Below are positions 4,175-21,569 of a stretch of 21,935 nucleotides of DNA, in pieces. Position numbers and translations under genes: made by a program. Source of the stretch: a bacterium (GTDB lineage: Bacteria > CAIJMQ01 > JAADFP01); contig JALUVB010000297.1 of assembly GCA_027021085.1 (NCBI GenBank), forward strand, positions 1 to 21,935, read 5' to 3'. A model generated the notes under the pieces. It did not search any database. It saw nothing but the letters and a program-made list of their open reading frames with translations, and was not told where the DNA came from. The stretch's first letter is position 1; each line of letters starts with the position of its first letter.

Positions 4175-6376
4175 CTATCCTTCCTCTTTAAACTTGAACC
4201 CCTTTTTCAATACTGCCATACATGCTTCCACTACATCAGAATCATAGAGTTTTTCCTTATTTTGCAAAATTTCTTCCAAGGCTTTATCTATCCCCAGAGC
4301 AGGCCTATAGGGACGGTGGGAACTCATTGCCTCCACTACGTCAGCCACTGCCAGTATTCTCGCCCCCAATAAAATCCTGTCTCCTTTCAAACCCTGCGGA
4401 TAGCCAGAACCATCCATTCTTTCATGGTGCTGGAGAATGATTTCTGCCACGGGCCAGGGAAAATCAATTCTTCTCAGTATTTCGAAGCCTACTTCCGGAT
4501 GTTCTTTAATTATGTCAAACTCAATTTCGTTTAATCTCCCGGGCTTGTTAAGTATTTCAATGGGGACAGCAATCTTTCCGATATCATGCAGCAAACCTGC
4601 TACCTGAAGGCCTTTTATCTCTTCTCCGGGAATCCCCATATTTTTTGCTATGGCACAGGCAAGCTGGGTAACCCGACGCGCATGGTCAGAAGTGTAGGGG
4701 TCTCTTTTTGCAATAGCTACCGATATAGCCTGAGTAATCTCGTATATTATCTTCTGCAACTTTCCCAGTATTTTTTTGATTTCTTCCTCTGTCCGCCTGC
4801 GTTCTTCTTCTGCCTCTATCCCATGCAGAGCCAGGGCAATATCACCGGCAACCTCCTCAAACAAGGATATTTCCTGCTCTTCCTCTATATAACTTTCCGG
4901 TATAGAAGCAGCCAGGAGGCCGTACATCTTGCCCCCATTTTCCAGGCGCATTATCATGGCACTCATTCCGGGATACTTATTTACCAGGGGACAATCCGGA
5001 CAGGTGGAGAGAGGTTTTTTAATTACCATTGCTTCCGGCTTCTTCCATGCTTGTTTAAAACAAGTAGGCAGATTGCCACGTTCTAATTGCTTAATAAAAG
5101 CTTTGAATTTATCCCCCAAACCAGCTTCGGCACTCTCAGTGATATTACCAGCCCCATCTATGAGCACTACCCAGACATGGTAATATCCACGCGTCTCAAC
5201 CAGGTTTTTGCAGATACCTTCAAGCAGCCGGTGCCGGTTCTTTTCCACGCTGATAAGCTGGTTCACCTTGCGGATGGCACGCAGGACAGCATTTAAATGC
5301 TGTATTTTTTCTTCGGATTCTCTCCGTTCAGTAATATCCCGGAAAATCCCCATTAGATACACCTTATCATTTACTTTTATAGGAGCAGAGTTAATATCGG
5401 CAAAAAATACGCTTCCGTCTTTTCTTTTCACCGGAATATCGCGGGAGAAGGTAATTTCCCTTCCTACCTGCCGCTCAAACTGCTCCATTATATAGGACAA
5501 TTCTTCTCGGGGATGGATATCCATAACCTTAAGTTTTTTCAACTCTCCCAGGCTATACCCCAGCATCTGGCAAATCTTTTTGTTACCCAGATATATTGTT
5601 TTATCTTCCGGGTCTGCCAGCAATATCCCATCCACTGCACTCTCAAAAATAGTTTCAAACATCTGCTCTGATTCTTTAAGTGCCTTTTCCGCACGTTCAC
5701 TTTTTTCTTTATCTCGCTTTCTCTCCACCAGGTTGTCTCTTACCATCTGGTAAGTCTTTTTTTCTGCCTCTTTCTTTGTCTTCATATCCGGAGGCAAATA
5801 ACAGGGATTTTCGCATAAATCGCAGTAAACAATAACTTTAGGGTGGGTACGAATTACCTCAAGAAGAATCTCCGGAGAGAATCTCTTTTCGTTGTACTGG
5901 CACATTGCCATGCACCGGCTTTCCGGAACGAAATAATTCAACCGGGACTCATACTCTAATAATTTTTCTGTCCCCGGCAGCCCGCTAAAAACCCGGGTCA
6001 TTTCTCCCGTAACCCTCAGCCCAGTAAAACCATCTTTAATTGCTCGTTTCTCCGCCTGCCTCAACATATCTATCATTCTTCCCGGGGTAAAGTAGCCTTT
6101 CTTCAGATAGGCATCATCCTTGCCCAAAAACTCAAAATGCTTTGAGGCAAGATATTTTTCCATATCTATACCTGCTTTTTTGCATGCCCTGATAATTTCC
6201 TGCTTGCTTCTTTCCTCCACAATATAGATGCACTTCTCTTTCCTCTCCAACCCCACGTTCATGAACGCAGTAATCACAGCCAATTGCTCTTCTTTATTCC
6301 TGTAGATGGAGCAGATATGCTCTCCAGGTCCCAGGCGCCTGAGCTCTCTTTTCAGCTTCTCGGCTGAATTACTCAT
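4175..6376 (-). CDS. MEDS-PAS-GAF-HD-GYP sensor phosphodiesterase
   Basis: A 733-residue cytosolic sensor predicted to degrade c-di-GMP. N-terminal MEDS domain (about 15-195; the methanogen/methylotroph DcmR-type sensor) starts with LGPGEHICSIY and ends with MAMCQYNEKRF plus a cysteine-rich tail (CDLCENPCYLPPD). A charged coiled coil (205-235), a PAS domain (237-360) and a GAF domain (375-535, containing STCPDCPL) follow. The C-terminal HD-GYP domain (550-725) has LLHDIGK and the full HHERMDGSGYP signature, so it should be catalytic. MEDS domains are thought to sense small organic ligands; the ligand here is unknown. The ATG at 6376 has only a weak ribosome site. A 126-nt gap separates it from the upstream HD-GYP gene, whose C-terminal domain it closely resembles (tandem duplicates). 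The EAL gene follows after 4 nt. Confidence 0.92.
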   Translation of the reverse strand: MSNSAEKLKRELRRLGPGEHICSIYRNKEEQLAVITAFMNVGLERKEKCIYIVEERSKQEIIRACKKAGIDMEKYLASKHFEFLGKDDAYLKKGYFTPGRMIDMLRQAEKRAIKDGFTGLRVTGEMTRVFSGLPGTEKLLEYESRLNYFVPESRCMAMCQYNEKRFSPEILLEVIRTHPKVIVYCDLCENPCYLPPDMKTKKEAEKKTYQMVRDNLVERKRDKEKSERAEKALKESEQMFETIFESAVDGILLADPEDKTIYLGNKKICQMLGYSLGELKKLKVMDIHPREELSYIMEQFERQVGREITFSRDIPVKRKDGSVFFADINSAPIKVNDKVYLMGIFRDITERRESEEKIQHLNAVLRAIRKVNQLISVEKNRHRLLEGICKNLVETRGYYHVWVVLIDGAGNITESAEAGLGDKFKAFIKQLERGNLPTCFKQAWKKPEAMVIKKPLSTCPDCPLVNKYPGMSAMIMRLENGGKMYGLLAASIPESYIEEEQEISLFEEVAGDIALALHGIEAEEERRRTEEEIKKILGKLQKIIYEITQAISVAIAKRDPYTSDHARRVTQLACAIAKNMGIPGEEIKGLQVAGLLHDIGKIAVPIEILNKPGRLNEIEFDIIKEHPEVGFEILRRIDFPWPVAEIILQHHERMDGSGYPQGLKGDRILLGARILAVADVVEAMSSHRPYRPALGIDKALEEILQNKEKLYDSDVVEACMAVLKKGFKFKEEG

Positions 6377-8642: not shown

Positions 8643-8680
8643 ACATGCGGTTATGCAAATATAGGAAGATAGTTTTTAAG

Positions 8681-9043
8681 ATGCATGAATTAATAAAAGC
8701 TTTTAAAGCTCTGTCTGATGAAACGCGGTTAAGAATACTAAAGCTCCTGGAAGAGAGGGCAGAGCTTTGCGTATGCGAGATTATGCAGGCCCTGAATATC
8801 TCCCAGACCAGGGCATCCCGCAACCTGGGTATCTTAAAGGACGCAGGTTTTGTGCATGATAGACGAGAGGGATTATGGGTGTATTACTCAATCAACCATA
8901 AGAAAATAAGAGATTACCACCTGGAATTGACCGAATTGCTGAAAAAATGGTTGAACCAGGAAGAAATTATTAAAAAGGATAGAGAAAGATTAAAAAAGGC
9001 AGTTAAATTGAACAAGGAGAAAAAGTGTAATTATGGCTGTTAA
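8681..9043 (+). CDS. arsR: ArsR/SmtB-family arsenic-responsive repressor
   Basis: A 120-residue winged-helix repressor expected to release the ars promoter when it binds As(III) or Sb(III). It begins [20 protein letters not shown], the usual family start. The metal-site motif ELCVCEI holds the Cys-x-Cys pair typical of ArsR, followed by the recognition helix around [12 protein letters not shown]. The C-terminus adds two more cysteines (KKCNYGC), which could contribute to metal binding. I chose ATG 8681 over the in-frame ATG at 8645 because the TATAAT box ends at 8642 and homology begins at 8681; AGGAAG at 8663 is the likely ribosome site. The last 11 nt overlap the start of acr3, so the operon is translationally coupled. 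Autoregulation is the family norm. Confidence 0.93.
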
Positions 9044-10184
9044 GGAAGAGAAAAGACTATCAGGTTTTGAAAAGTACTTAACTTTCTATGTTTTACTTTC
9101 CATTGCGGCAGGGATACTTCTGGGAAAGACAGCTCCTCAGGTAGCAGAAAGACTGGATTCTTTTTCAATATACCAGGTATCCATCCCCATAGCTATCTGC
9201 CTGTTCTTCCTGATGTATCCCATCATGGTAAAGATTGATTTTTCCGAGGTGTTAAAAGCCGCCAAGACTCCCAAGCCCGTGGCCCTGACCCTCTTCATCA
9301 ACTGGGCAATTAAACCTTTCACCATGTACCTGATTGCCTATTTTTTCCTGGGCTACCTTTTTAAAGGATTTCTCCCGGGGACAGAAATCATCAAGACAGG
9401 CCAGGAAGTAGAACTATGGCGAAGTTACATCTCAGGGGCCATTCTTCTGGGAATTGCTCCCTGCACAGCCATGGTCTTGATGTGGAGCTACCTGGCAAAA
9501 GGCAACGATGGCCTTACCCTGGTATTAGTAGCCATAAACTCTCTCACCATGCTGGTGCTCTATGCTCCCCTGGGAGGTCTTCTCCTGGGCATAAATGCAA
9601 TGCCCATACCCTGGAAAACAATACTGTTTTCCGTGGCAATTTACGTGGCACTGCCTTTAATTGCCGGCTACTTTTCCCGCAAGTGGATTATCAAAGCTAA
9701 AGGATTGGAATGGTTTAATAAAAAATTCCTGCATCATCTCACACCGGTCAGCATAATTGCACTGCTGGCTACATTAGTGCTTCTTTTCTCCTTTAAGGGA
9801 GAAGTTATCATAAAAAACCCCCTCACCATACTCTGGATAGCCATCCCCCTCTTTATCCAGACAACATTTATTTTCAGTTTGGGGTACTTTGTCCTGGCAA
9901 GACTGTTAAAGCTATCCTACCAGGATGCCGCTCCTTCTGCCATGATCGGAGCCTCAAACCATTTTGAAGTAGCAATTGCCACGGCCACCATGCTCTTTGG
10001 ATTATCCTCGGGCGCAGCACTGGCAACCGTGGTGGGGGTTTTAATTGAAGTACCGGTAATGCTTATGCTCGTTTCAATATCCAAGCGAACCTGCCACTTA
10101 TTTGAAAAATGCCACCTTAACCTGCCCCAATGCAAATCGAAAGGGAGAGAAAGAAAGCCCTGCCTCACCTCTGGAGAAATATAA
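9033..10184 (+). CDS. acr3: Arsenite efflux permease, Acr3 family
   Basis: A 383-residue inner-membrane carrier of the BASS/Acr3 type with about ten hydrophobic segments, exporting arsenite using the membrane potential or proton gradient. Family hallmarks are the [19 protein letters not shown] stretch with the essential Cys (C144) and the [16 protein letters not shown] motif near the C-terminal end. The start codon overlaps the end of arsR by 11 nt. Its stop (TAA, 10182-10184) shares one base with the ATG of arsC. The C-terminal cytosolic tail contains three cysteines ([14 protein letters not shown]). Role and placement agree with an ordinary arsenic resistance operon. Confidence 0.95.
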
Positions 10185-10606
10185 TGAGAAAGAAAAAAGT
10201 GCTCTTTATCTGCACCCATAATTCCTGCCGTTCCCAGATGGCAGAGGGTCTGCTGCAAGCCTTATACGGAGATTATTACCAGGCATACAGCGCAGGGACC
10301 AGACCATCCCAAGTACACCCCCACGCAGTAAAGGCAATGGCAGAAATCGGCATTGATATTTCGGGGAATAAATCAAAGAGTATAAATGAATTCCTGGAAA
10401 CCGAATTTGACTACGTGGTCACTGTCTGCGACCAGGCAAATGAAACCTGTCCCATCTTTCCCGGAGGCGGGAAACACATCCATAAAAGCTTCCCCGACCC
10501 CTCACGCCTGGAAGGAAGTGAAAATGAAAAGATAAATGCCTTCCGCCAAACCAGAGATGAAATCAAGGACTGGATTAAAAAAACCTTTTCTCCCTCTAAT
10601 CCCTGA
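10184..10606 (+). CDS. arsC: Arsenate reductase, thioredoxin-coupled (low-MW phosphatase fold)
   Basis: A 140-residue reductase converting arsenate to arsenite for export by Acr3. The P-loop CTHNSCRS gives the C10-x5-R16 signature, and the redox cysteines C82 and C89 lie in VCDQANETCP, matching the numbering of the Staphylococcus aureus pI258 ArsC, so it should be thioredoxin-dependent rather than glutaredoxin-dependent. SFPDPS supplies the conserved Asp of the low-molecular-weight phosphatase fold. I chose ATG 10184, which overlaps the acr3 stop, over an in-frame ATG at 10130 that would add 18 non-conserved residues from inside acr3. It is the last gene of the operon; no convincing terminator follows. 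Confidence 0.94.
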   Translation: MRKKKVLFICTHNSCRSQMAEGLLQALYGDYYQAYSAGTRPSQVHPHAVKAMAEIGIDISGNKSKSINEFLETEFDYVVTVCDQANETCPIFPGGGKHIHKSFPDPSRLEGSENEKINAFRQTRDEIKDWIKKTFSPSNP

Positions 10607-10739: not shown

Positions 10740-10828
10740 AAACAGGGGATCTTTTATTCAAAAAAACTCGCACACAGCGTTAAACTTTAGGACTTTGGAG
10801 CAAAAATTACCAGCTTGATTTCTAAAAA

Positions 10829-10850: not shown

Positions 10851-11564
10851 ATGGAGCTAAATTTTGAATCGGTAAAGAAGGTATCCTTATCGCGCTCGGT
10901 GGCAGAGAAGATAATCGGGTACATAAAGGAAGGCTATTTAAAGGTAGGAGATAAACTACCTCCCGAGAGAACTCTCTGCGAGAAATTCCAGGTAAGCAGG
11001 ACATCCCTCAGGGAAGGAATTAAAGCACTCACTCATTTAGGAATACTGGAGAGTATTCCCGGGAGCGGTGTATATGTAAGGACCGGTTTCCCGCGGAAAG
11101 TGCTGCAACGCAGGCTGGAGGAATTCAAGATAAACGAGGCCACCATATCAAATCTTATTGAATTCAGGGAAGGAATAGAATCTTTTATCGGGGAGCTGGC
11201 GGCAAAAAGGGCTACCGGGGAAGAAATCAGTGAACTGGAAAAGACCATAATAAAAATGGAGAAGAAAAAAGAAAAAGGAGTTTCCTTTGCCAAGGAAGAA
11301 GCTGAATTTCATAAGATTCTTGCCCGGGCTTCTCATAACGACTTTTTTGTAAAGGTGCTTGACTCCATTGTCCCTTCCATACTGCGCTGGGTATATGCAC
11401 GGGAATTGGTCATCGATCCGGATAGAGCCATTTCACTGCATAAAAGTATCCTGGAAAGCATCAAAAAGCGGGACAGGGAAGAAACCAAGAAAGCTATAAA
11501 GACCCACTTTGCCCATGCAAGGGAACTCATTAAAAAAATTACACCGGAAGACCAGGTTAAATAA
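10851..11564 (+). CDS. GntR-family transcription regulator, FadR/FCD subfamily
   Basis: A 237-residue DNA-binding protein: winged helix about 10-78 (PPERTLCEKFQVSRTSLREG, then GSGVYV) and an all-helical FCD ligand domain about 95-225 with the FHKILARASHNDFF and LHKSILESIKKRD motifs carrying the usual His metal/ligand positions. FCD domains bind small carboxylates such as lactate, gluconate or glucuronate, so a hydroxyacid or sugar-acid effector is plausible. It heads a same-strand run of eleven further genes and most likely controls it. Start is uncertain: ATG 10851 matches where homology begins but has no Shine-Dalgarno site, so the message might be leaderless; an in-frame TTG at 10815 would add 12 residues. 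The next gene follows after 12 nt. Confidence 0.88.
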   Translation: MELNFESVKKVSLSRSVAEKIIGYIKEGYLKVGDKLPPERTLCEKFQVSRTSLREGIKALTHLGILESIPGSGVYVRTGFPRKVLQRRLEEFKINEATISNLIEFREGIESFIGELAAKRATGEEISELEKTIIKMEKKKEKGVSFAKEEAEFHKILARASHNDFFVKVLDSIVPSILRWVYARELVIDPDRAISLHKSILESIKKRDREETKKAIKTHFAHARELIKKITPEDQVK

Positions 11565-11576
11565 GCGAGGAGAACC

Positions 11577-12521
11577 ATGTATTCTGAAAAGATAGGAGTT
11601 AAGGTTAGCGAGGCAAAAATAGGAGTATCCACAAATTCTCCCCATCTTTTAAAAAGGGAAGATTTCTACTGGCTGGACACCAACTTCCTCTCTGTAGATT
11701 TTATCCCTTTCACCGCAGGCATGGATTCCTATATGGAGGTAGAAGATAGAGAAGAATCCCCCGTTTTAGAAATAGAAGGTAAGCATTTAAGAGTTAAGGG
11801 GAGCTTTTCCGCCTGGAAAAAAGAAGCTAAAGACAAGAGATATACCCTCTTTGGAAACCTGGGGGTTCTTTCCGCCTGGGCTTTAAGAACCCTGGAAGAA
11901 GAACACGATATTTCCACTTTTCATGCCTGTGCGTTGGTAAAGGATGGAAAATTAATGATAATTTCCGGGGGGGCAGGAGCAGGAAAGACAGTATTTATTC
12001 TTTCTGCCCTAAAGAAAGGCTGGAAAATTTTTTCCACAGAATTTGTACACTTCCGGGTAAAAGAAAAGGTGGAGTTTTTCAAAGGTGCACTTAAAGATGC
12101 GGTGAGAGTGGATACATTTCAATACCACTTTCCGGAGATGGCAGAGAAATTAGGCGTAAACTTGAAGGAAGAGACGGGAAGTAAACTTATGGTAGATTTC
12201 TCCTCTTTCCGGGCAGAAGAAGACACGTTATCAGACCCTGAGATTACCCTAATTTTTCCCCACGTGGAGGAGAAAAGGGAAAGACTAATACATAAAGAGG
12301 TAAAAGATAGAGAGTCTTTGCTGAGAACACTTTTTAATACTGCTTCAGAAAAGATAGGAAAAAGCATGCTTCTCTACGGCAAATGGGCTGTTCCCGGGCT
12401 GGATACACTTTTTCTTGCAGAGAAGAGATTGGAAAGATTAGAAAAATTTTTAGAAAGGGGAAAGATTCAGAAATCTTTCCTCTGGGTTTCCGGAGTTAAA
12501 GAGGTAATAGAAATCGTTTAA
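11577..12521 (+). CDS. HPr-kinase-like P-loop protein
   Basis: 314 residues. The C-terminal half resembles the catalytic domain of HPr kinase/phosphorylase: STFHACALV, then a strong Walker A, SGGAGAGKT (residues 130-138), where HPr kinases have GxSGxGKS. The acidic SDD motif that normally follows is replaced by FSTEFVHFR, so the usual catalytic Asp is absent or substituted by Glu. The N-terminal 110 residues have no family I recognise. No HPr or other PTS gene is visible. Similar stand-alone HprK-like kinases occur in many bacteria and their substrates are mostly unknown; it could phosphorylate a small molecule or a protein of this cluster. It sits between the regulator (12-nt gap) and the ComA-like gene (24-nt gap), with GGAG just before the ATG. 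Confidence 0.6.
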   Translation: MYSEKIGVKVSEAKIGVSTNSPHLLKREDFYWLDTNFLSVDFIPFTAGMDSYMEVEDREESPVLEIEGKHLRVKGSFSAWKKEAKDKRYTLFGNLGVLSAWALRTLEEEHDISTFHACALVKDGKLMIISGGAGAGKTVFILSALKKGWKIFSTEFVHFRVKEKVEFFKGALKDAVRVDTFQYHFPEMAEKLGVNLKEETGSKLMVDFSSFRAEEDTLSDPEITLIFPHVEEKRERLIHKEVKDRESLLRTLFNTASEKIGKSMLLYGKWAVPGLDTLFLAEKRLERLEKFLERGKIQKSFLWVSGVKEVIEIV

Positions 12522-12545
12522 TAAAACTAAGGAAAGGAGGACATT

Positions 12546-13385
12546 ATGGTCAGAGCGTTTGCAGATTTCATCCCCATCCCTGAGGAGACCGGAGTGGTAA
12601 TGGTAATAGAAAAGGAGTTTGGTCCCCGCAGCGCAGAAGACTGGACAAACATAGCTGCCGGTATTGTCGATATCGTAAAAGTCACTTTTGGCACCGGTGC
12701 ACTATACAACGAGGAGATACTGAAAGAGAAACTCAGTGTTTACAAAAATGCCGGGATAAACCCCATGATAGGAGGCACGCTTACCGAGGTAGCCATACTT
12801 ACAGCCGGAGGCTACTCCGGGAAAGAACTGGAAGGTTATCTTAAGTACGCCAAGTCACTGGGATTTACCTACATAGAATTCTCTGACGGCTCCATATACA
12901 TTCCTGATGAGAAAAGAAGTGAAATAATTAGAATGTGCATAGGAGAAGGATTTACCGTGATATCCGAGGTGGGCAAGAAGGATCCCAAAAAGGATGCCTT
13001 AATAACCATGGAAAAACGAATTGAACTGATGGAACAGGACCTGAAAAGTGGGGCAAAAATGGTGATTATCGAGGCCAGGGAATCCGGTAAGGGTATTGGG
13101 GTCATGGACAAGGCAGGAAAGGTTGACTTTACCGAGCTGGATGCCATTATCAGTGCAGTGGGGCTGGAGAATACCATGATAGAATCACCGGAAAAATCGC
13201 AGCAGCAGGCAGTTTTCCTGCAATACGGACCAAAGGCAAATATCGGCAACGTGCAACCGCGGGATATTCTTTCCGTGGGCGCTTTAAGAGGAGGATTGAG
13301 AGGCGATACCATCAGTGCCTTAAGAAAAGAAGCCTGGGAAAAATACCATGCTTCCCAAAACGCTCCTGAAGAATACAGGATTTAG
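12546..13385 (+). CDS. comA: Phosphosulfolactate synthase (ComA) family protein
   Basis: A 279-residue TIM-barrel protein. In methanogens ComA adds sulfite to phosphoenolpyruvate to give (R)-phosphosulfolactate, the first step of coenzyme M synthesis; Bacillus YitD belongs to the same family. Conserved family motifs visible here are VKVTFGTG (45 is Lys), GFTYIEFSDGSI, EVGKKDPKKD (141-150), IEARESGKGIG, ESPEKSQQ and LRGGLRGDT (247-255), so the active site looks intact. It is somewhat longer at the N-terminus than the roughly 250-residue methanogen enzyme. No ComB, ComC, ComD or ComE homologue is seen in the window, so it is not part of a visible coenzyme M operon. A strong AAAGGAGG precedes the ATG. 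Direction and product in this organism are unknown. Confidence 0.85.
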   Translation: MVRAFADFIPIPEETGVVMVIEKEFGPRSAEDWTNIAAGIVDIVKVTFGTGALYNEEILKEKLSVYKNAGINPMIGGTLTEVAILTAGGYSGKELEGYLKYAKSLGFTYIEFSDGSIYIPDEKRSEIIRMCIGEGFTVISEVGKKDPKKDALITMEKRIELMEQDLKSGAKMVIIEARESGKGIGVMDKAGKVDFTELDAIISAVGLENTMIESPEKSQQQAVFLQYGPKANIGNVQPRDILSVGALRGGLRGDTISALRKEAWEKYHASQNAPEEYRI

Positions 13386-13417
13386 GTAAACAATTGTAAT
13401 TATAAAGGAGGTAAAAG

Positions 13418-14410
13418 ATGATTCTTGTAGGCTGGATAGTAATGGCGATAGTTGCCTATGCCTCTATGCTGATAAACCGTTTAGTAGTAATAAACGGAAC
13501 ACATCCGTTTGAGGCTATTGCAGTAGGCGTGGTTCTGGGGGCTCTGGCCAGGAACACCGGGTTAATTCCGCCCCGCTGGGAACCGTACCTGAAGAAATTC
13601 GAAATGCCTTTGCTCTGGGGAGTAGTGCTCCTGGGAGCAGGCTTCACCACTGAAATCGCCAGGGCTGAACCTTTAAGTTTAATAGTCATCTTTGTAACCA
13701 TGGCCATAGGATACTGGTTCATTTATTTCCTGGCCAGGAGAGTAGGATTACCCAAAAAATTGAGTGCCTTACTTTCGGTAGGCACCACTATCTGCGGCGG
13801 TTCTGCCATAGCCATAACCGCCCCCTTAATTAAGGCAAAGGAAGAGGAGACCAGCTATGCAGTAAGCACCATAGTAATTGCTGCCTTTATTCTTCTCATT
13901 ACTCTTCCTTTTCTGGGAAAGGTAATGAACCTCTCTCAAACCGCATTCGGTGTTTGGGCAGGAACCTCTGTGCATAATACTCCACAGACTATAGGAACAG
14001 GGTACATGTACGGAGATAAGGCAGGGCAGGTAGCTACCATGGTGAAATTAACCAGAAATATGTTCATGATCGTGGTAGCCTTGTTTGTCTCCCTCTGGAT
14101 AGGGACACAGGAATCAGCTGATAAGAAACTCGGGAAAAAAGCTATACTTAAAGCTTTCCCCTGGTTCCTCTTCGGATATATTGGTATGGCTATTTTCAAA
14201 CTGCTTGGATTTTTCACCCCACAGGGAATCTACTGGTTTCTTAAATCGGGGAAATTCCTTATACTTATGGGTATGGTAGGGATTGGTTTCGGCACAGATT
14301 TCAGGCATATCAAGAAGCTGGGGATTAAACCGCTCATGGTAGGAATTGTCGGGGCTATAGTAGTAACCGCTATAAGTCTGCTAATGGTTAAATCCATAGG
14401 ATTCCATTAA
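13418..14410 (+). CDS. YeiH/UPF0324-family membrane protein (putative sulfate-type exporter)
   Basis: A 330-residue polytopic membrane protein with about ten hydrophobic segments. It matches the YeiH/UPF0324 family by VGTTICGGSAIAITAPLIKAK (about 125-145, quoted in part), GTSVHNTPQTIGTGYMYGD and KLTRNMFMIV. The family is annotated as putative sulfate exporter, but transport has rarely been shown. Next to a ComA homologue an exporter or importer of sulfite, sulfate or a sulfonate is a reasonable guess. AAAGGAGG stands 7 nt before the ATG; gaps of 32 nt upstream and 9 nt downstream place it in the operon. Confidence 0.85.
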   Translation: MILVGWIVMAIVAYASMLINRLVVINGTHPFEAIAVGVVLGALARNTGLIPPRWEPYLKKFEMPLLWGVVLLGAGFTTEIARAEPLSLIVIFVTMAIGYWFIYFLARRVGLPKKLSALLSVGTTICGGSAIAITAPLIKAKEEETSYAVSTIVIAAFILLITLPFLGKVMNLSQTAFGVWAGTSVHNTPQTIGTGYMYGDKAGQVATMVKLTRNMFMIVVALFVSLWIGTQESADKKLGKKAILKAFPWFLFGYIGMAIFKLLGFFTPQGIYWFLKSGKFLILMGMVGIGFGTDFRHIKKLGIKPLMVGIVGAIVVTAISLLMVKSIGFH

Positions 14411-14419
14411 AGGATAGAT

Positions 14420-15646
14420 ATGCTTTTCCATATCCCTTACGGAAAGGGGTTCTTAGACCTGGATATTAAGGAGCGGGAGGGAGAAATTTTCCTCCCGCGC
14501 TCCTTACCCCCCAGCAAAAATTTACGGGAAGAACTAAAGAAAAAGTTAGAATTTCCCCTGGACACCCCTCCCCTCTCCCAATTATGCCGAGGGAAGAAAG
14601 AGGCCTGTATCGTAGTGGATGATAATACCCGCCCGCCCCTGGGGAAAGTTATATTTCCTTACCTTCTTCCCTATTTAAAGGAGCACGGGATAGAAAAAGC
14701 AACTATTCTTATAGCCCTGGGACTGCATACCCCGGTGAAGAAGGAAAGAATAGAGGAACTCCTGGGAAAACTCCCTTCCTGGGTGAAGGTAAAAAACCAC
14801 TGTATAGAAGAAACCAGAGAGGTGGTAAAAATTGACGGGGTAAGCGTGAAGTTGAATTCTTCCTTCCTCAATGCTCCCTTGAAAATTATTATCGGAGATG
14901 TAGAACTCCACCAGATTTTTGGCTACGGGGGAGGAGCAAAAAGCCTGCTGCCGGGTATCTCCGATAGGGAAAGCACAACTTACATTCATTCATTTCTTAT
15001 CCATCCTGATTCAGGCCCGGGTAAACTTGCGGAAAACCCCGTACAGAAATTCCTGGGCAAATTATACGATAAAATAAAGGTAGATTTTTCCCTGCAATTT
15101 GTTTTGAACGAGGAGGAAGAGATTGCCAATATCTTTTCCGGTAGCTTAAAAACAAGCTTCCTGGAAGGAAAGAAACTGGTGGACAGGATGAACAAGGTCA
15201 AAGTGGAAAAAGAATTTGACATATTAGTGCTCTCACCCGGAGGATTTCCCAGGGATATTGACCTTTACCAAACGCAGAAAGTAATAAATATGAGCTTCAG
15301 GGCATTAAAAAAAGGCGGGAAAATGATAATTTTTTCCGAATGTAGCGAGGGTGCAGGTCCCAGCGATTTTGAAAAATGGATAGAAAAGAATTTGACCGGT
15401 GAGGAGGTGGAGAGAAAGGCCAGGGAGAAATTCTCCATGGGATTGCACAAGCTGTATCTATTTTTTAAAGGCACCCGGGGAAGAGAAGTATTTCTCTTCT
15501 CTTCTCTGCCGGAATCGATTGTAAAAGGAGTATTTCTGCATCCGATTGACCTAAACGGAGCAAAGAGCCTGATGGCAAAGGGTGAGAAGATAGGGTTTGT
15601 CCCCTATGCCACCACCACTCTCCTGGAGAAGACAAATGGGAATTAG
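14420..15646 (+). CDS. larA: LarA-family nickel-pincer racemase/epimerase
   Basis: 408 residues, close to the usual 420-430. LarA enzymes use a covalently bound Ni-pincer nucleotide to racemise or epimerise 2-hydroxyacids by hydride transfer. Residues matching the cofactor and active site of the Lactobacillus enzyme are visible: DDNTRP (67-72), H103 in ALGLHTP, H164 in GDVELHQIF, K174 in GGGAKSLLPG (cofactor attachment) and H190 in TTYIHSF. The C-terminal domain has LSPGGFPRDIDLYQTQK. The substrate cannot be read off, since the family includes lactate, malate, phenyllactate and gluconate-type enzymes. larB, larC and larE, needed for the cofactor, are not in this window. The end overlaps the start of the EamA gene by 11 nt. 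Confidence 0.87.
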   Translation: MLFHIPYGKGFLDLDIKEREGEIFLPRSLPPSKNLREELKKKLEFPLDTPPLSQLCRGKKEACIVVDDNTRPPLGKVIFPYLLPYLKEHGIEKATILIALGLHTPVKKERIEELLGKLPSWVKVKNHCIEETREVVKIDGVSVKLNSSFLNAPLKIIIGDVELHQIFGYGGGAKSLLPGISDRESTTYIHSFLIHPDSGPGKLAENPVQKFLGKLYDKIKVDFSLQFVLNEEEEIANIFSGSLKTSFLEGKKLVDRMNKVKVEKEFDILVLSPGGFPRDIDLYQTQKVINMSFRALKKGGKMIIFSECSEGAGPSDFEKWIEKNLTGEEVERKAREKFSMGLHKLYLFFKGTRGREVFLFSSLPESIVKGVFLHPIDLNGAKSLMAKGEKIGFVPYATTTLLEKTNGN

Positions 15647-16607
15647 TCCCTACTTTGCTACTGTCTTCCTGTCCTTTATCTGGGCAGTGTATATTGTTCT
15701 TTCCCGCCTAGCAGTACAGCAGGTACCCCTCTTTGCCGTAGGATTCTTCTCCCGCCTGGTAGCTGTGCTGGGGCTGAGTATATGGGTAATAGGTAAAAAA
15801 GAGATTAAAAAACTTTTTCATTTGAAGAAAGAACAGTTTTATCTTCTCCTGCTTATTGGTTTTTTTGCTTTCCTCCTGGATGCTGCTGCTTTTTTAGGCC
15901 TGCGATTTTCCACTGCCACTAAAGGAGCCCTTCTGCTCAGGACAGATATCTTCTTCATAGTAATATTCAGCTACTTTTTCCTGGGGGAAAGATTTAAAAA
16001 AATAGAGTGGGCAAGCATGGCTTTCATGCTGGCGGGAGCTGTCCTGATAATGAACATCAACCTGAAAGAAGTGCGCCTTTCTTCCTGGGGAGATGCTTTA
16101 TTTATTCTGAACGCTTTTTTAATCACTTGCAATGCTTTTATCATCAAGCTAAAATTGCAGGAGGTTTCCGATACTACTATTGCTTTTTACAATAATTTAT
16201 TTGCCACTTCGTTTTACGGAGTAGCTTTCTTCCTGGGAGGTTACGGCAACATGCTGGCCGCTGGATTAAAAAGAATTCCCTACCTTACTTACATATTGGT
16301 GGCCATGGGTATATGCGATGTCTTCCTTTTTGTTACCTATTATCATGCCCTTCGCAGGCTGCCGGTATGGATAGTAAGAACCCTGCTCCTTCTCATTCCC
16401 TTGTGGAGCATTCTTTTAGGCTCTATCTTCTTAGGAGAAAGGCTAAATATATCTCAAAGCATCGGTACGATTCTTCTCCTGGGAGGTTCTGCAGGAATTA
16501 TTCTCAGCAGGAGAAAACCTCGCAATTCCCATATCCAGGCAACGGAAGTTAGAAAGAGAATTTGGAGAAAGGGGATTTCTTCATTACAGGTAAGAAGGGT
16601 ATTATAA
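15636..16607 (+). CDS. EamA/DMT-superfamily transporter
   Basis: A 323-residue inner-membrane protein with about ten hydrophobic helices and the two-repeat EamA layout: first half with SFIWAVYIVLSRLAV and LGLRFSTATKGALLLRTDIFF ending in FFLGERF, second half ending in SIFLGERLNISQSIGTIL. The LGER motif at the end of each repeat is typical. Substrate unknown; the family exports or imports amino acids, sugars and other metabolites. Start: ATG 15636, with GGAGAAG 6 nt upstream, overlapping the end of larA; an in-frame TTG at 15597 would add residues lying inside larA and is unlikely. It could carry the substrate or end product of this cluster. Confidence 0.88.
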   Translation: MGISPYFATVFLSFIWAVYIVLSRLAVQQVPLFAVGFFSRLVAVLGLSIWVIGKKEIKKLFHLKKEQFYLLLLIGFFAFLLDAAAFLGLRFSTATKGALLLRTDIFFIVIFSYFFLGERFKKIEWASMAFMLAGAVLIMNINLKEVRLSSWGDALFILNAFLITCNAFIIKLKLQEVSDTTIAFYNNLFATSFYGVAFFLGGYGNMLAAGLKRIPYLTYILVAMGICDVFLFVTYYHALRRLPVWIVRTLLLLIPLWSILLGSIFLGERLNISQSIGTILLLGGSAGIILSRRKPRNSHIQATEVRKRIWRKGISSLQVRRVL

Positions 16608-16630
16608 ACTATAAAAAAGGAGGTTTTATC

Positions 16631-17491
16631 ATGACAAGAGGCGAAGAAGTAAGAAAACTGCTCTCCATGGGACCGGAAGAATTGGTGGAAAAGGCAAAAG
16701 GCAAGCTAATAGTTCTGGATACTCTGGATGAGTTACATGAGCATTTTGCCCGCACTATTGCCGATGAAATAAAAGGAAATAACGAAAAAGGCAAAGCGAC
16801 AAAACTAATCCTTCCGGTGGGCCCCGTAGGACAGTATCCCATCCTGGCGGAAATTATCAACCAGGAAAGGATAAGCCTGAAAAACTGCTATTTCTTCTAC
16901 ATGGACGAATATTGCGACGATAGCGGCAAAGCCATCCCTCCCTCTCATCCCCTCAGCTTCCGGGGCGAGATGGAACATCTCTTCTTCTCCAAGATTGACT
17001 CTGAATTGAACATCCCGGAAGAGCAGCTCATCTTCCCCTCGCATGAGAACCTGCACCTCTTGAAAGGTAAGATTGAAGAAGCGGGAGGAATAGACACCTG
17101 TTACGGAGGCATAGGAGTGCATGGACACGTAGCCTTTAACGAACCGGAACCAAACATACGCTATACTGACCCGAGGCTGGTTTACCTTAATCAATACACC
17201 ATAACTATTAATGCTATCCGTTCGGAAGTAGGCGGAGACCTGGTCAACTTCCCCCGCAAGGCAGTGACCCTGGGAATGAATCAAATATGCGGGGCAAGAA
17301 GGGTAAGGCTCTACTGCCGGAATGACATAGTGGATATCGACTGGGCAAATCTGGTGCTAAGGTTGGCAGTATTGGGTACACCGGGCGACGATTACCCGGT
17401 CACTTACCTTACAGAACATCCTGACTACGTAGTGGTAACCATTAAGAATACTGCTGAAAAACCAAAAATTATTCTTTCCCTGCCCTATTAA
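16631..17491 (+). CDS. Divergent NagB-fold protein (glucosamine-6-phosphate deaminase-like)
   Basis: 286 residues. The fold is set by FYMDEY (89-94), HPLSFRG, GGIDTCYGGIGVHGHVAFNEPEP (in part, 152-174) and the following core. NagB normally opens the sugar-6-phosphate ring and converts the 2-amino group. Two key sites differ: the phosphate-binding loop, usually PTGxTP or ATGSTP, reads PVGPVGQYP (62-70), and the catalytic Asp of GxDGH is His (GVHGH, H164). The Asp of MDEY, the His of GH (H166) and Glu171 are kept. It is therefore unlikely to be a standard GlcN6P deaminase; an isomerase acting on a different acid-bearing sugar is possible. The N-terminus is about 25 residues longer than usual. 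AAGGAGG precedes ATG 16631; an in-frame TTG at 16562 lies inside the EamA gene. Confidence 0.75.
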   Translation: MTRGEEVRKLLSMGPEELVEKAKGKLIVLDTLDELHEHFARTIADEIKGNNEKGKATKLILPVGPVGQYPILAEIINQERISLKNCYFFYMDEYCDDSGKAIPPSHPLSFRGEMEHLFFSKIDSELNIPEEQLIFPSHENLHLLKGKIEEAGGIDTCYGGIGVHGHVAFNEPEPNIRYTDPRLVYLNQYTITINAIRSEVGGDLVNFPRKAVTLGMNQICGARRVRLYCRNDIVDIDWANLVLRLAVLGTPGDDYPVTYLTEHPDYVVVTIKNTAEKPKIILSLPY

Positions 17492-17512
17492 GGGGAGAGA
17501 GGAGGTTAAAAA

Positions 17513-18757
17513 ATGAAAATAGTAGTATTTGAAGACGAAGGATACAAGAACCTTCACCCCCTGACGCTTTTCCGGCCTGCTTTTGAATTAAGGTGTGGAT
17601 TCACTACGCTCCTGGAGAAGATTGCCCGGAAATTCCCAGAGTATCCTTTTCTTCTTTTCACCCGGGATTACCTGATTCCTACCCTGAAGAAAAGGTGGGC
17701 ATATTCTATAAACAAGTTGGAAGAATTGAAAGAAGATGATATTCTATTCCTGAACGGCAGAGTGCTGGTAGACAAAAACTTCTCCCTGGAGCCGGAGGGA
17801 GAAGAAATAAGCGGGAGAAAGGGAAACCAGGTAGTTTACCTTCGGGCAAAGAAAGAGACTACAAGAAAAATTCAGTACTCCAGCCTGGCAGAACTCATTG
17901 AGAAGCTCTCTTCCCTCTTGCCCTCCCGGGAAGTGGAAGACACTCTTATAAACTATCCCTGGGACCTGATAAATCTTAACGGGGAAGCCATTGAAGATGA
18001 CTTCCAGCATGTGGGAGGAAAAATACTCGGCTCTCTTTCCAGTCAGGCAAGCATTATAGGAGACAAAGGAAAAGTATTCATAGGAAAAGGAGCCATTGTA
18101 CATCCATTTGTAGCACTTGATGTAAGAGAAGGCCCCATAATAATTGACGAAGAAGTAGAGATTTACCCCGGCTCTCATATTCAGGGCCCCACGGCAATAG
18201 GCAAAAAGTCCCATATAGTAGGAGCCAAGGTAAGAGAAGGATGCTCATTCGGTCCTGTGAGCATGATAGGAGGCGAGGTAGAAGAATCTATTTTCCAGGG
18301 TTATGCCAACAAGTTCCACGAAGGCTTCCTGGGGCATGCCTACATCGGCGAATGGGTAAACCTGGGTGCCCTCTGCACAAATAGCGACCTCAAAAATACT
18401 TATGGCCCGGTAAAAGTATATATAAACGGGGAAATGATGAACTCAGGAGAGCTCAAAGTAGGCTCCTTTGTAGGAGACCATGCCAAGCTGGGAATAGGCA
18501 CCCTTCTCAACACCGGGACAGTAATCGGGGCAGGAAGTAATGTGTTTGGGGGAGAAATGCCTCCCAAGTTTGTTCCTTCCTTCTCCTGGGGTTCGGGAAA
18601 GGAGTTTGTGGAATTCCGCCTGGAAAAAGCCTTAGCCACAGCCCGGGTGGTAATGAGCCGAAGAGACGTGGTAATGAGCGAGGAAGATGCTGAACTAATA
18701 AAGAAAGTTTTTGAACTCACCCAGGCAGAAAGAGAAAAATTCGGGGTAAGGAGGTAG
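17513..18757 (+). CDS. GlmU-like sugar nucleotidyltransferase/acyltransferase with beta-helix
   Basis: 414 residues. The N-terminal half starts VVFEDEGYKNLHPLTLFRPAF and ELRCGFTTLLEKI, the signature of the alternative bacterial GlmU-like family rather than canonical GlmU (no GxGTRM loop). The C-terminal half (about 165-385) is a left-handed beta-helix with hexapeptide repeats (IIDEEVEIYPGSHIQGPTAI, VGAKVREGCSFGPVS, IGTLLNTGTVIGAGSNVFGG), as in acyl- and nucleotidyl-transferases. It probably makes or modifies an activated sugar; the donor and sugar are not known. AGGAGG precedes the ATG, with 21 nt after the NagB-like gene and 3 nt before the first oxidoreductase, so it is tightly in the operon. 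Confidence 0.78.
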   Translation: MKIVVFEDEGYKNLHPLTLFRPAFELRCGFTTLLEKIARKFPEYPFLLFTRDYLIPTLKKRWAYSINKLEELKEDDILFLNGRVLVDKNFSLEPEGEEISGRKGNQVVYLRAKKETTRKIQYSSLAELIEKLSSLLPSREVEDTLINYPWDLINLNGEAIEDDFQHVGGKILGSLSSQASIIGDKGKVFIGKGAIVHPFVALDVREGPIIIDEEVEIYPGSHIQGPTAIGKKSHIVGAKVREGCSFGPVSMIGGEVEESIFQGYANKFHEGFLGHAYIGEWVNLGALCTNSDLKNTYGPVKVYINGEMMNSGELKVGSFVGDHAKLGIGTLLNTGTVIGAGSNVFGGEMPPKFVPSFSWGSGKEFVEFRLEKALATARVVMSRRDVVMSEEDAELIKKVFELTQAEREKFGVRR

Positions 18758-18760
18758 AAG

Positions 18761-19807
18761 ATGTTGAATTACGGAGTCATTGGATGCGGAGCAGTATTCG
18801 AGGTCTTCCAGGTAAATGCGCTTGCGCAGGCTTCCGGAGTAAAACTCCTCGCCGTTTGTGATATTAACCAGGATAGGCTCTCGGCCATTCAGAAAAAATA
18901 CCAGGTTCCCCGCACCTATACGGATTACCATGCACTTCTGCAGGACAAAGATATAGAGGTGGTAATGATTAATCTTCCCCAGCATCTTCACCGGGAGATA
19001 GCTCTAAAATCTGCCCAGGCAGGGAAACACGTCTATGTAGAAAAGCCCATAGCCACTACCCTGAAAGATGCCCGGGATATCATAGAATCCTGCAGGGAAA
19101 ACGGGGTAAAACTCTGCGTAGGCCACCAGAGAAGATTTATTACTACAGAACTAAAGGCAAAAGAAATGATTGAAGCAGGTGAACTGGGCAAAATCTTCAA
19201 AGTGCGGGCAGTGGCCTGCTGGTTTGAAGCAAGGAAAAGCCTTCTCTCCAAAGACTGGTGGTATAAAAAGGAATGCGGCGGAGGCCCCCTCATGCGCTGG
19301 GGTGTGCATAAAACCGACACCTTGCATTTCCTGCTGGGGAAAAAACCTTTGCGGGTATATGCAGAAATGGGGCAGTTCGTGCACCAGGGAGGAGGAGTAA
19401 CAGTGGAAGATAATCTCCTGGCTCTCTACCGCTTTGAAGGAGATATAATAGGAGAACTGGAAGTAAGCAATTCCCAGCACGAATGGAAATTCGGAGGAGA
19501 ATACATAGAAATATTCGGGGATAAAGGCACCTTGAGATACTGGCCTTCGGAAGGGATAATGAGAATATACATCCCCGGAAATAAGGACCCCCTTCCCGGG
19601 TGTGAAGAGACCATAGAAATAATTCCTGACGGGAAAGAGATGATAAGGATACACGAATCCTTTGTGAAAAGTATAGAAAAGAATACTTCACCACCGGTTA
19701 CCGGAGAAGAGGGATATGTTGCTTTAGAAATGGCACTGGGTGCATACTATTCTGCAGAAACGGGTAAAGCAGTGCGGTTTCCCCTGACGAATGAAGCAGG
19801 AGGTTAA
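18761..19807 (+). CDS. Gfo/Idh/MocA-family oxidoreductase (copy 1)
   Basis: 348 residues, NAD(P)-dependent sugar or polyol dehydrogenase family. Rossmann part: GVIGCGAVFEVFQ at the N-terminus, then VVMINLPQHLHREIA and the EKPIATTL motif (about 94-101) carrying the conserved Lys. The C-terminal domain has GGGPLMRWGVHKTDTLHFLLG with the usual His/Asp pair, although the standard MDxGxH is MRWGVH here. It cannot be assigned a substrate; the family oxidises or reduces sugars, inositols and sugar nucleotides. AGGAGG for its start is inside the end of the GlmU-like gene (3-nt gap). The stop is one base before the second oxidoreductase start, so the two are probably made together. Confidence 0.87.
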   Translation: MLNYGVIGCGAVFEVFQVNALAQASGVKLLAVCDINQDRLSAIQKKYQVPRTYTDYHALLQDKDIEVVMINLPQHLHREIALKSAQAGKHVYVEKPIATTLKDARDIIESCRENGVKLCVGHQRRFITTELKAKEMIEAGELGKIFKVRAVACWFEARKSLLSKDWWYKKECGGGPLMRWGVHKTDTLHFLLGKKPLRVYAEMGQFVHQGGGVTVEDNLLALYRFEGDIIGELEVSNSQHEWKFGGEYIEIFGDKGTLRYWPSEGIMRIYIPGNKDPLPGCEETIEIIPDGKEMIRIHESFVKSIEKNTSPPVTGEEGYVALEMALGAYYSAETGKAVRFPLTNEAGG

Positions 19808-19808
19808 A

Positions 19809-20804
19809 ATGCTTAAATGGGGCGTGATTGGAGCAGGAGGATTCGCTGACCGGCGGGTTATACCTCAAATATTAGAAGCAAAAGGCTGTGAATTAGAAGC
19901 AGTCATGGTAAGAGACAGGGAAAGAGCAGAAAAAATTGCCGGGAAGCATGGGGCTAAAAAGGCTTACGATTCCGTGGAAAAACTTCTTGAGGATGCCGAG
20001 ATAGATGCAGTTTATATCTGCACTCCTCTCTACCTTCACCGCGAGCATGCGCTCCTGGCAGCCGGGAAAGGCAAACACATCCTATGTGAGAAACCCATGG
20101 CTTTGAACCAGAGGGAATGCGAAGAAATGATAGCGGTATGCCGGGAAGCAGGGGTAAAATTAATGATAGGATTCATGATGCGGTTTCATCCTGTTCACCG
20201 GAAAGCAAAAGAGCTGGTAGAAAAAGGCACTCTGGGTGATATTGTGCTGGCAAACATCCAGAACTTTCTCTGGTACCCGCGCACGGAAGGAGCCTGGCGC
20301 CAGACCCCGGAATTAGGGGGAGGCGGAGCATTGATGGATGTTGGTTCTCATTGCATTGACCTCCTATCGTTTCTCCTGGGAGAAGTCAAGAAAGTATCAG
20401 GGACAGTGGCAAATGCAATTTTTGACTACCCGGTGGAAGATACTTCCCTGCTAACCCTGCAATTTAAAGGAGGAGCCCACGGAGTGGTGGAAAACAGCTT
20501 TGCCATACCGCACCGGGAAAACCACCTGGAAATTTATGGCAGCAAGGGAACCCTGCTTATCTCCCGCAGTATAGGCCCTTTTAAAGATTTCCAGATGAAA
20601 CTAATTACAGAAGAGGGGGAAAAGATTTTTGTTATTCCTTACGAAGACCCTTACCGGAAGGAATTCGAAGAATTTGTTAAAGCAGTGGAAGAAGATACCT
20701 TACCACCCATTCCCGGTGAGGCAGGAAAAGAGAACATCAAAATAATAGAAGCCGCTTACCTTTCCTCCCGAGAAAAAGGGAAGTTCGTATATGTTGATAA
20801 GTGA
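19809..20804 (+). CDS. Gfo/Idh/MocA-family oxidoreductase (copy 2)
   Basis: 331 residues. Rossmann motif GVIGAGGFADRR, then VYICTPLYLHREHALL, EKPMALNQRECEEM and, in the C-terminal domain, GGGGALMDVGSHCIDLLSFLLGE with the usual MDxGxH. The catalytic Lys and His of the family are present. It differs clearly from copy 1, so the two are likely distinct steps or opposite halves of an oxidation/reduction pair rather than a fresh duplication. I chose ATG 19809 because AGGAGG sits just before it; an ATG at 19791 would add six residues and include the ribosome site. After it comes the only sizable gap (120 nt) in this part of the cluster, holding a long hairpin. Confidence 0.88.
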   Translation: MLKWGVIGAGGFADRRVIPQILEAKGCELEAVMVRDRERAEKIAGKHGAKKAYDSVEKLLEDAEIDAVYICTPLYLHREHALLAAGKGKHILCEKPMALNQRECEEMIAVCREAGVKLMIGFMMRFHPVHRKAKELVEKGTLGDIVLANIQNFLWYPRTEGAWRQTPELGGGGALMDVGSHCIDLLSFLLGEVKKVSGTVANAIFDYPVEDTSLLTLQFKGGAHGVVENSFAIPHRENHLEIYGSKGTLLISRSIGPFKDFQMKLITEEGEKIFVIPYEDPYRKEFEEFVKAVEEDTLPPIPGEAGKENIKIIEAAYLSSREKGKFVYVDK

Positions 20805-20835
20805 AAGGGAGACATTTCGAGCCTGGAGTTTTGTC

Positions 20836-20893
20836 CCGAAGGTTCCTCTCGACCTGCCTGTTCGCTTTCTCGTGGGTCGGAGGACAGCTTCGG
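20836..20893. other. Long imperfect hairpin between oxidoreductase and transaldolase genes
   Basis: Nested arms: CCGAAG (20836-20841) with CTTCGG (20888-20893), TCCTC (20844-20848) with GAGGA (20880-20884), and CGACC (20850-20854) with GGTCG (20875-20879), closing a 20-base loop. About 16 base pairs form, with small internal loops. It lies 31 nt before the transaldolase start and 32 nt after the oxidoreductase stop. No T-run follows on the plus strand, so it is not a normal terminator. It could be an mRNA processing/stability element, a REP-like repeat or an uncharacterised RNA structure. Confidence 0.5.
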
Positions 20894-20924
20894 AAGATTT
20901 AGGGTTTAAAAAAAGGAGGTTGAC

Positions 20925-21569
20925 ATGAAATTCTTTCTGGATACCGCACGGGTTGAGGAGATTAAGGAAGCCTTGGAATGGGGAATATTGGATGGGGTAA
21001 CCACCAATCCCACCCATATTGCGGCCACCGGTAAAAAATTCAGGGAAGTGGCAGAGGAAATCCTCGCCCTGGTAGATGGTCCTGTCTCCCTGGAAGTGGT
21101 GAGTACAAACTGGAAGGGAATGGTGGAAGAGGCCAAGGACCTGGTTAAAATGGGAGAGAACGTGGTAATAAAAATTCCCTTGATAAGGGAAGGAGTGCGA
21201 GCAGTAAAAGAGCTCACTGAATTGGGAATAAAGACCAATGCTACCTTAAACTTCTCTCTTTCCCAGGCTTTAATGGCAGCAAAGGCAGGAGCTACCTATG
21301 TAAGTCCCTTTGTGGGCAGACTGGATGCCGTGGGGGAAGACGGGATGGGACTGGTAGAAAAAATCAAATTAATGCTGGATAACTACGGGTTCCAGACCCA
21401 GATCATAGTCTCTGCAGTACGTCATCCCATGCACGTGGTAGAAGCTGCTCTTATAGGTGCGCATGTATCCACAATGCGCTTTGATATAATGAAGCAGCTC
21501 TTTGAACATCCGCTTACTGACATCGGCTTGAAAATGTTCCTTTCTGACTGGGAAAAGGTTCCCAAGTAA
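20925..21569 (+). CDS. FSA/TalC-type transaldolase-family protein
   Basis: 214 residues, the length of the short transaldolase/fructose-6-phosphate aldolase type. The Schiff-base Lys is K83 in VVIKIPL; Asp6 in FLDTA, Glu57, T107 and the phosphate-side residues R132 (VGRLD) and S163/R166 (SAVRHP) are present. Compared with ordinary family members as I know them, three positions close to the active site are polar where hydrophobic or small residues are usual: TTNPTH for TTNPSL, TLNFS for TLIFS, and STMRF for the usual xTxPF. This suggests altered substrate choice. The ATG at 20925 has AGGAGG five nt upstream. Being at the end of a ComA/NagB-like cluster it may cleave or transfer a three-carbon unit from a ketose. 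Confidence 0.88.

Follow-up and report, generated by a model that had tools for sequence, protein, structure and literature searches.

Sulfolactate, a malate analogue in which a sulfonate replaces a carboxylate, commonly arises when plant and algal sulfonates are broken down; in the literature consulted, the described routes for its use depend on SuyAB, Xsc or CuyA. The known degraders first use SlcC and ComC to invert (S)-sulfolactate to its R form; SuyAB then yields pyruvate and sulfite, the latter being exported (PMC12421959, PMC11382572). ComA is known from the opposite direction, as the enzyme that makes phosphosulfolactate from phosphoenolpyruvate (PEP) and sulfite when coenzyme M is synthesized, in archaea and by the Xcb pathway (PMC8727900). 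Here we describe a run of genes that includes a ComA-superfamily member, located in a window of 21,935 nucleotides (nt) that forms contig C297 of a draft bacterial genome (G000; 1.93 Mb, 93.9% complete), whose phylum is represented by seven genomes in the collection searched. We propose that the first half of this operon serves sulfolactate metabolism, most probably its degradation, with a probability of roughly 0.4, the substrates and the direction being those that we infer from its gene content.

In the proposed route, the LarA-family protein would convert the S and R enantiomers of sulfolactate into each other in a single step; its place would be taken by a class I fumarase-type hydratase at a related locus in Planctomycetota. 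A protein resembling PEP carboxykinase (PEPCK) and HPr kinase (HprK) would then use ATP to convert (R)-sulfolactate to phosphosulfolactate, which ComA, working in reverse by a retro-Michael reaction, would split into PEP and sulfite. YeiH would export the sulfite and PEP would enter central metabolism; the one ATP spent would be regained at the step from PEP to pyruvate. The EamA transporter possibly carries sulfolactate, by uptake or export. Taken as a whole, an undescribed C-S cleavage in which a kinase from a new, PEPCK-like family acts with a reversed ComA to yield PEP and sulfite, fed by a nickel-pincer sulfolactate racemase and so far seen in bacteria of three phyla, is a tentative proposal that we regard as rather doubtful. 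A phrase search of the literature consulted gave no match for sulfolactate kinase, sulfolactate racemase, sulfolactate epimerase or phosphosulfolactate lyase. The closest described system is the SlcC/ComC, SuyAB and SuyZ pathway of Paracoccus pantotrophus and Chromohalobacter salexigens, which shares the predicted substrate, the S-to-R inversion, the release of sulfite and an exporter of the YeiH/SuyZ family; here, however, the place of SuyAB would be taken by the kinase and ComA, and that of the two dehydrogenases by a nickel racemase (or a hydratase). If the proposal is correct, kinase and ComA would constitute an additional sulfolactate route that yields PEP directly, functions could be assigned to an unannotated kinase-like family, a LarA subgroup and a YeiH-family protein, and bacterial ComA genes alone would be no proof of coenzyme M synthesis.

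A conserved ComA neighbourhood in three phyla

Relatives of ComA were sought in about 85,000 genomes, one per bacterial and archaeal species, with a scan that relies on exact peptide matches and that more distant relatives can escape. Only two close relatives of the window's ComA emerged, one 75% identical in a Planctomycetota metagenome-assembled genome (MAG; genome G007, locus L002) and one 74% identical in a Spirochaetales MAG (genome G008, locus L003). The gene order at L002 is kinase-like, ComA, YeiH, fumarase alpha and fumarase beta, and L003 carries the kinase-like gene (on the divergent strand), ComA and LarA. The kinase-like gene directly adjoins ComA at all three loci of this ComA subfamily, in three phyla and two orientations. 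These two genes form the core, which is joined by YeiH at two of the three loci, by a LarA of the malate-racemase type at two, and by the class I fumarase-type hydratase at one. This cross-phylum ComA neighbourhood, which includes an unannotated PEPCK/HprK-like family and, as alternatives, either LarA or an enzyme of the fumarase type, is newly seen here.

Profile searches found the window's ComA type in one of the seven genomes of its own phylum, in one of 392 Planctomycetota and one of 392 Spirochaetota genomes, and in none of the genomes outside its own phylum in a broad set of 386, other ComA relatives scoring far below it. No relative of the ComA alignment was found in viral contigs. The kinase profile gave a sole strong match in the 392 Planctomycetota genomes, namely the copy beside ComA; plasmids held no relative of the kinase-like protein, and at the other ComA loci (on plasmids, in Planctomycetota and in the broad bacterial set) no kinase-profile match was found in the stretch examined.

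Operons can mix functions, and the sugar half of the run does look unrelated to the rest; one could imagine that the whole is a chance collection of unrelated metabolic genes. For the core this was already unlikely. The kinase-like gene stands beside ComA in three genomes, each adjacency having, on gene counts, a chance of between about 1 in 1000 and 1 in 2200, in loci that share ancestry, and we consider mere coincidence highly improbable. The first-pass annotation had tentatively interpreted the entire run as a link between a sugar and C3 sulfonates, and the neighbourhood comparison divides that interpretation: the core genes co-occur in other genomes, whereas the sugar genes do not. The sulfonate part gains from the fact that the pair of ComA and kinase-like gene recurs in two further phyla, accompanied by YeiH at L002 and by LarA at L003, and from the conserved ComA positions, the retained LarA residues and the link of the YeiH family to sulfite that are presented below.

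The ComA-superfamily and kinase-like proteins

The window's ComA scores 249.8 bits with PF02679 (cut-off 25.2). Of its solved relatives, archaeal ComA is the nearer at 181 bits, against 107 bits for 1u83. It was aligned with four references, M. jannaschii ComA, Xanthobacter XcbB1 and two other bacterial proteins, which share 54 invariant positions; 40 of these are kept, and the EVGKK, ESGKG and LRGDT blocks match M. jannaschii ComA. Phosphosulfolactate chemistry is likely, although not certain, and changes specific to the subfamily lie near the probable active site. The surroundings differ from both coenzyme M systems. Archaeal synthesis (ComA-ComB-ComC-ComDE) shares a ComA superfamily enzyme, but ComB is absent from the three genomes, no ComDE was seen at the loci, and a PEPCK/HprK-like protein is found instead. 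Bacterial synthesis (XcbB1-C1-D1-E1 in Xanthobacter and Mycolicibacterium) shares XcbB1, which is 37.5% identical to the window's ComA, but the window's locus has neither XcbC1, XcbD1 and XcbE1 neighbours nor epoxyalkane genes. The search for ComB (PF04029) was negative in all three genomes and positive in seven controls; consequently, another protein must handle the phosphate. An Ldh_2-type ComC (PF02615) was absent from G000 and G007 and present as one copy in G008.

The PEPCK/HprK-like protein matched no Pfam family, and with the NCBIfam model HprK_rel_A it reached 23 bits (cut-off 200) in a match that spans 54 residues. Its three copies are 25-35% identical and about 315-380 amino acids (aa) long, and they have in common a Walker A motif and S-T-E-x-x-H-F. 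The Asp pair of HprK reads STE in all three, against SDD in an HprK-related Planctomycetota protein. An HPr kinase/phosphatase is recognized by its family model and by Walker A plus the Asp pair, and among these features the protein has Walker A only. The AlphaFold model of the window's copy (pLDDT 58, pTM 0.60) aligned with ATP-dependent PEP carboxykinase at Z 11.2 over 248 residues (root-mean-square deviation, rmsd, 5.5) and with HPr kinase at Z of about 9 over 116-121 residues; for the model of the L002 copy (pLDDT 44), PEP carboxykinase came first (Z 10.1, rmsd 4.4, 219 residues), and in both models the fit extends over most of the chain. A profile search of the PDB with the alignment of the family returned generic P-loop matches only, and the fold claim therefore rests on the models, in which, at low confidence, the protein resembles the PEPCK/HprK superfamily. 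The predicted fold and Walker A are thus shared with that superfamily, but the STE sequence is not, and the protein fits no curated family; its role as a kinase is putative. The XcbF1-type gene (about 309 aa), which lies beside ComA in bacterial coenzyme M clusters, was considered as a relative and rejected: it has no Walker A, and the kinase profile misses its loci.

More distant ComA-family genes were encountered in several other contexts. In Planctomycetota genome G019 (locus L055, 7797-11839 of contig C39; PF02679 E=3e-71), the neighbours are a NeuD-like gene, a UDP-GlcNAc 2-epimerase of the NeuC type and NeuB, that is, a ComA relative in a cluster of the sialic-acid type. On Bradyrhizobium guangxiense plasmid p53363 (L027, 3310-6738), the gene comes right after PrpF and MmgE/PrpD, with a tripartite tricarboxylate transporter protein nearby, and a ComA with the same match occurs on seven Bradyrhizobium plasmids. 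On a Legionella lytica plasmid (L025, 4850-8478), a protein of about 970 aa has the ComA domain at its C-terminus, with an aminotransferase before it and a ComB gene immediately after it.

LarA, the hydratase and the YeiH-family protein

Malate-type acids are substrates of both LarA and fumarase. The window's LarA is closest to malate racemases, its scores with the LarAH6 and LarAH5 equivalog models being 300 bits (the best) and 280 bits, under the cut-offs of 500 and 462. With the nickel-pincer (NPN) binding and catalytic residues of malate racemase Mar2 taken from PMC7583248, the NPN-binding residues R71, K174 and H190 are kept, as are D68, H103, H164 and K287 of the catalytic set, together with Q286 and K344. 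The lysine corresponding to Mar2 K351, thought to hold the second carboxylate of malate, is also kept. All NPN, catalytic and second-acid residues are therefore shared with the malate racemases LarAH5/LarAH6 (Mar1, Mar2), but apart from the curated cut-offs one difference stands out: where Mar2 has H-Y-K, both ComA-linked LarAs have H-Q-I/F, the loop after H164 reading QI in the window's protein. The LarA cofactor requires LarC. It is full-length in G000 and partial in G008, the two genomes whose loci include LarA; none was found in G007, whose locus has the fumarase-type hydratase and no LarA. Since a genus relative without ComA has LarC too, this co-occurrence adds little to the argument.

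The YeiH-family protein scores 211.7 bits with PF03601 (cut-off 24.5) and 125.5 bits with TIGR00698, under its cut-off of 232.6. A yeiH deletion makes Salmonella sensitive to sulfite, YeiH being needed for sulfite resistance (PMC12880088), and SuyZ of a sulfolactate-degrading Paracoccus belongs to the YeiH family (PMC11582611). SuyAB is not in the cluster; no genome-wide search for it was made. Elsewhere in G000 (contig C270, locus L083), a protein of about 770 aa carries two NIR_SIR (sulfite/nitrite-reductase) domains and has a relative in the genus sibling; it is a possible sink for sulfite.

Weighing the proposed route

Several points weigh against the degradative route. The established direction of ComA is synthesis; its reverse reaction is not documented in the literature consulted, and it would probably be uphill because PEP is a high-energy compound. 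The window's ComA scores 260.1 bits with the TIGR03849 equivalog model, under the cut-off of 280, so that it is filed as a superfamily member and not as a proven synthase, and it departs from the four references at D22E, G24E and E245G and by six residues inserted after the GGTL motif. The kinase-like models are of low confidence, as their pLDDT values of 58 and 44 indicate. Moreover, neither YeiH nor EamA is present at the Spirochaetales locus, the two YeiHs are 30% and the two LarAs 35% identical, and the three loci, the only ones known, are related by descent through ComA. Finally, the fumarase alpha subunit at L002 passes the fumarate hydratase model. By this match the hydratase may be an ordinary fumarase, and it is harder to place in the route.

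The ComA differences point to an alternative in which the subfamily has taken on a different substrate, for example a new nucleophile or a different 2-phospho-acid, and the module handles a malate-like acid other than sulfolactate. The changes fall at positions invariant in the four references, the insertion and the missed equivalog cut-off fit such a shift, and ComA relatives do occur in odd contexts (the NeuB/NeuC cluster; PrpF/PrpD). Nevertheless, 40 of the 54 invariant positions and the three blocks of M. jannaschii ComA have been retained, and two of the three loci carry a gene of the YeiH family, with its link to sulfite. We consider a shifted substrate unlikely, if a serious contender.

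The same enzymes could also run the other way and fix sulfite. ComA would add sulfite to PEP, the PEPCK/HprK-like protein would remove the phosphate (as HprK/P does, or with its conservation as ATP), and LarA or the hydratase would adjust the product before sulfolactate is exported or used. HprK homologues are able to dephosphorylate, and ComB is lacking in the three genomes. This reading also agrees with the direction in which ComA works when archaea or the Xcb enzymes make coenzyme M (PMC8727900). However, XcbC1 (argininosuccinate-lyase-like), XcbD1 and XcbE1 are missing from all three loci, the window's genome lacks the Ldh_2-type ComC, and a racemase beside a sulfite-linked exporter better fits the uptake and breakdown of mixed enantiomers. 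We therefore find sulfite fixation improbable rather than remote, and retain sulfolactate degradation as the preferred reading.

The sugar half and the layout of the gene run

The genes from NagB-like to transaldolase share the operon with the core, and this is the only tie to sulfonates that we found for them. NagB-like, GlmU-like, Gfo/Idh, EamA and transaldolase genes are not at the L002 or L003 locus. The transaldolase scores 266.6 bits with the T. maritima transaldolase against 170 with the sulfofructose transaldolase BmSF-TAL, and it is 81% identical to a gene of G006, a relative from the same family without ComA, where its neighbours look like general housekeeping genes (for example, a ribose-phosphate pyrophosphokinase-like open reading frame). 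By these comparisons it is probably an ordinary enzyme inherited within the family, closest to the TalC/FSA type. An FSA-type transaldolase is present both here and in the sulfo-TAL sulfoquinovose pathway, but the window's is of the ordinary type and no other sulfo-TAL gene was seen. The NagB-like protein is 64% identical to Haloarcula plasmid proteins encoded beside aldolase and sugar-transport genes and has 38% identical relatives in a Vibrio nucleoside cluster; its PDB relatives are GlcN6P deaminases, with DGH where it has HGH.

A single pathway that connects C3 sulfonates with an amino or acidic sugar, in either direction, by way of NagB, GlmU, Gfo/Idh and transaldolase would account for a whole gene set packed into one tight run on one strand. 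Yet no sugar gene accompanies the core at the other two loci, the NagB-like relatives belong to unrelated sugar and nucleoside clusters, the transaldolase is far closer to ordinary enzymes and its near relative lies away from ComA, and the annotations revealed no sulfolactaldehyde dehydrogenase, sulfolactaldehyde reductase or sulfoquinovose isomerase gene. We judge this sugar link very unlikely, and it is here that the first-pass interpretation fails.

Families were assigned to the window's proteins with Pfam and NCBIfam (Table 1). Together with the open reading frames, these assignments confirmed every gene that the first-pass annotation had named, all on the plus strand between 10851 and 21569. 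Its count of eleven genes after the regulator is reached only with the GntR/FCD regulator included, ten genes following it. The tight spacing is real, with intergenic distances of about -17 to +32 nt, except for 120 nt before the transaldolase. AGGAGG-like ribosome sites precede most genes; promoter and terminator scans gave site counts no higher than in shuffles.

Table 1. Genes of the run, with coordinates in the window and the evidence for each assignment
Gene product	Coordinates	Strand	Evidence
GntR/FCD-family regulator	10851..11564	+	Pfam FCD E=5e-23, GntR E=2e-16; ATG start, TTG at 10815 also possible
PEPCK/HprK-like putative small-molecule kinase	11577..12521	+	Walker A GGAGAGKT; STEFVHF replaces HprK SDD region
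ComA-superfamily protein (PF02679), distinct subfamily	12546..13385	+	Pfam E=3e-74; E22, E24, 6-residue insertion
YeiH/SuyZ-family (PF03601) membrane protein, predicted sulfite/sulfonate exporter	13418..14410	+	Pfam E=1.5e-62
LarA-family Ni-pincer racemase, predicted sulfolactate racemase	14420..15646	+	Best NCBIfam LarAH6, 300 bits
EamA-family transporter	15636..16607	+	Pfam E=3e-31
NagB-fold sugar-phosphate enzyme, accessory	16631..17491	+	TIGR00502 95 bits, cut-off 237
GlmU-like sugar-1-phosphate nucleotidyltransferase/acetyltransferase, accessory	17513..18757	+	TIGR03991 397 bits, cut-off 225
Gfo/Idh/MocA oxidoreductase 1, accessory	18761..19807	+	Pfam; PDB matches broad only
Gfo/Idh/MocA oxidoreductase 2, accessory	19791..20804	+	Pfam
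TalC/FSA-type transaldolase	20925..21569	+	TIGR00875 306 bits, cut-off 246

A CxxCxxCC gene (Pfam) lies 9 nt downstream of the transaldolase. Upstream of the run, an ArsR-type regulator, an SBF-family (ACR3-like) transporter and a low-molecular-weight phosphatase (ArsC-like) occupy 8645-10606, in what looks like a small arsenic-resistance operon. Further away, 4175-6376 encodes a MEDS-PAS-GAF-HD sensor protein of 733 aa; other proteins, of PAS/GGDEF/EAL and PAS/HD-like type, are encoded on that strand as well, and the whole makes up a dense signalling cluster.

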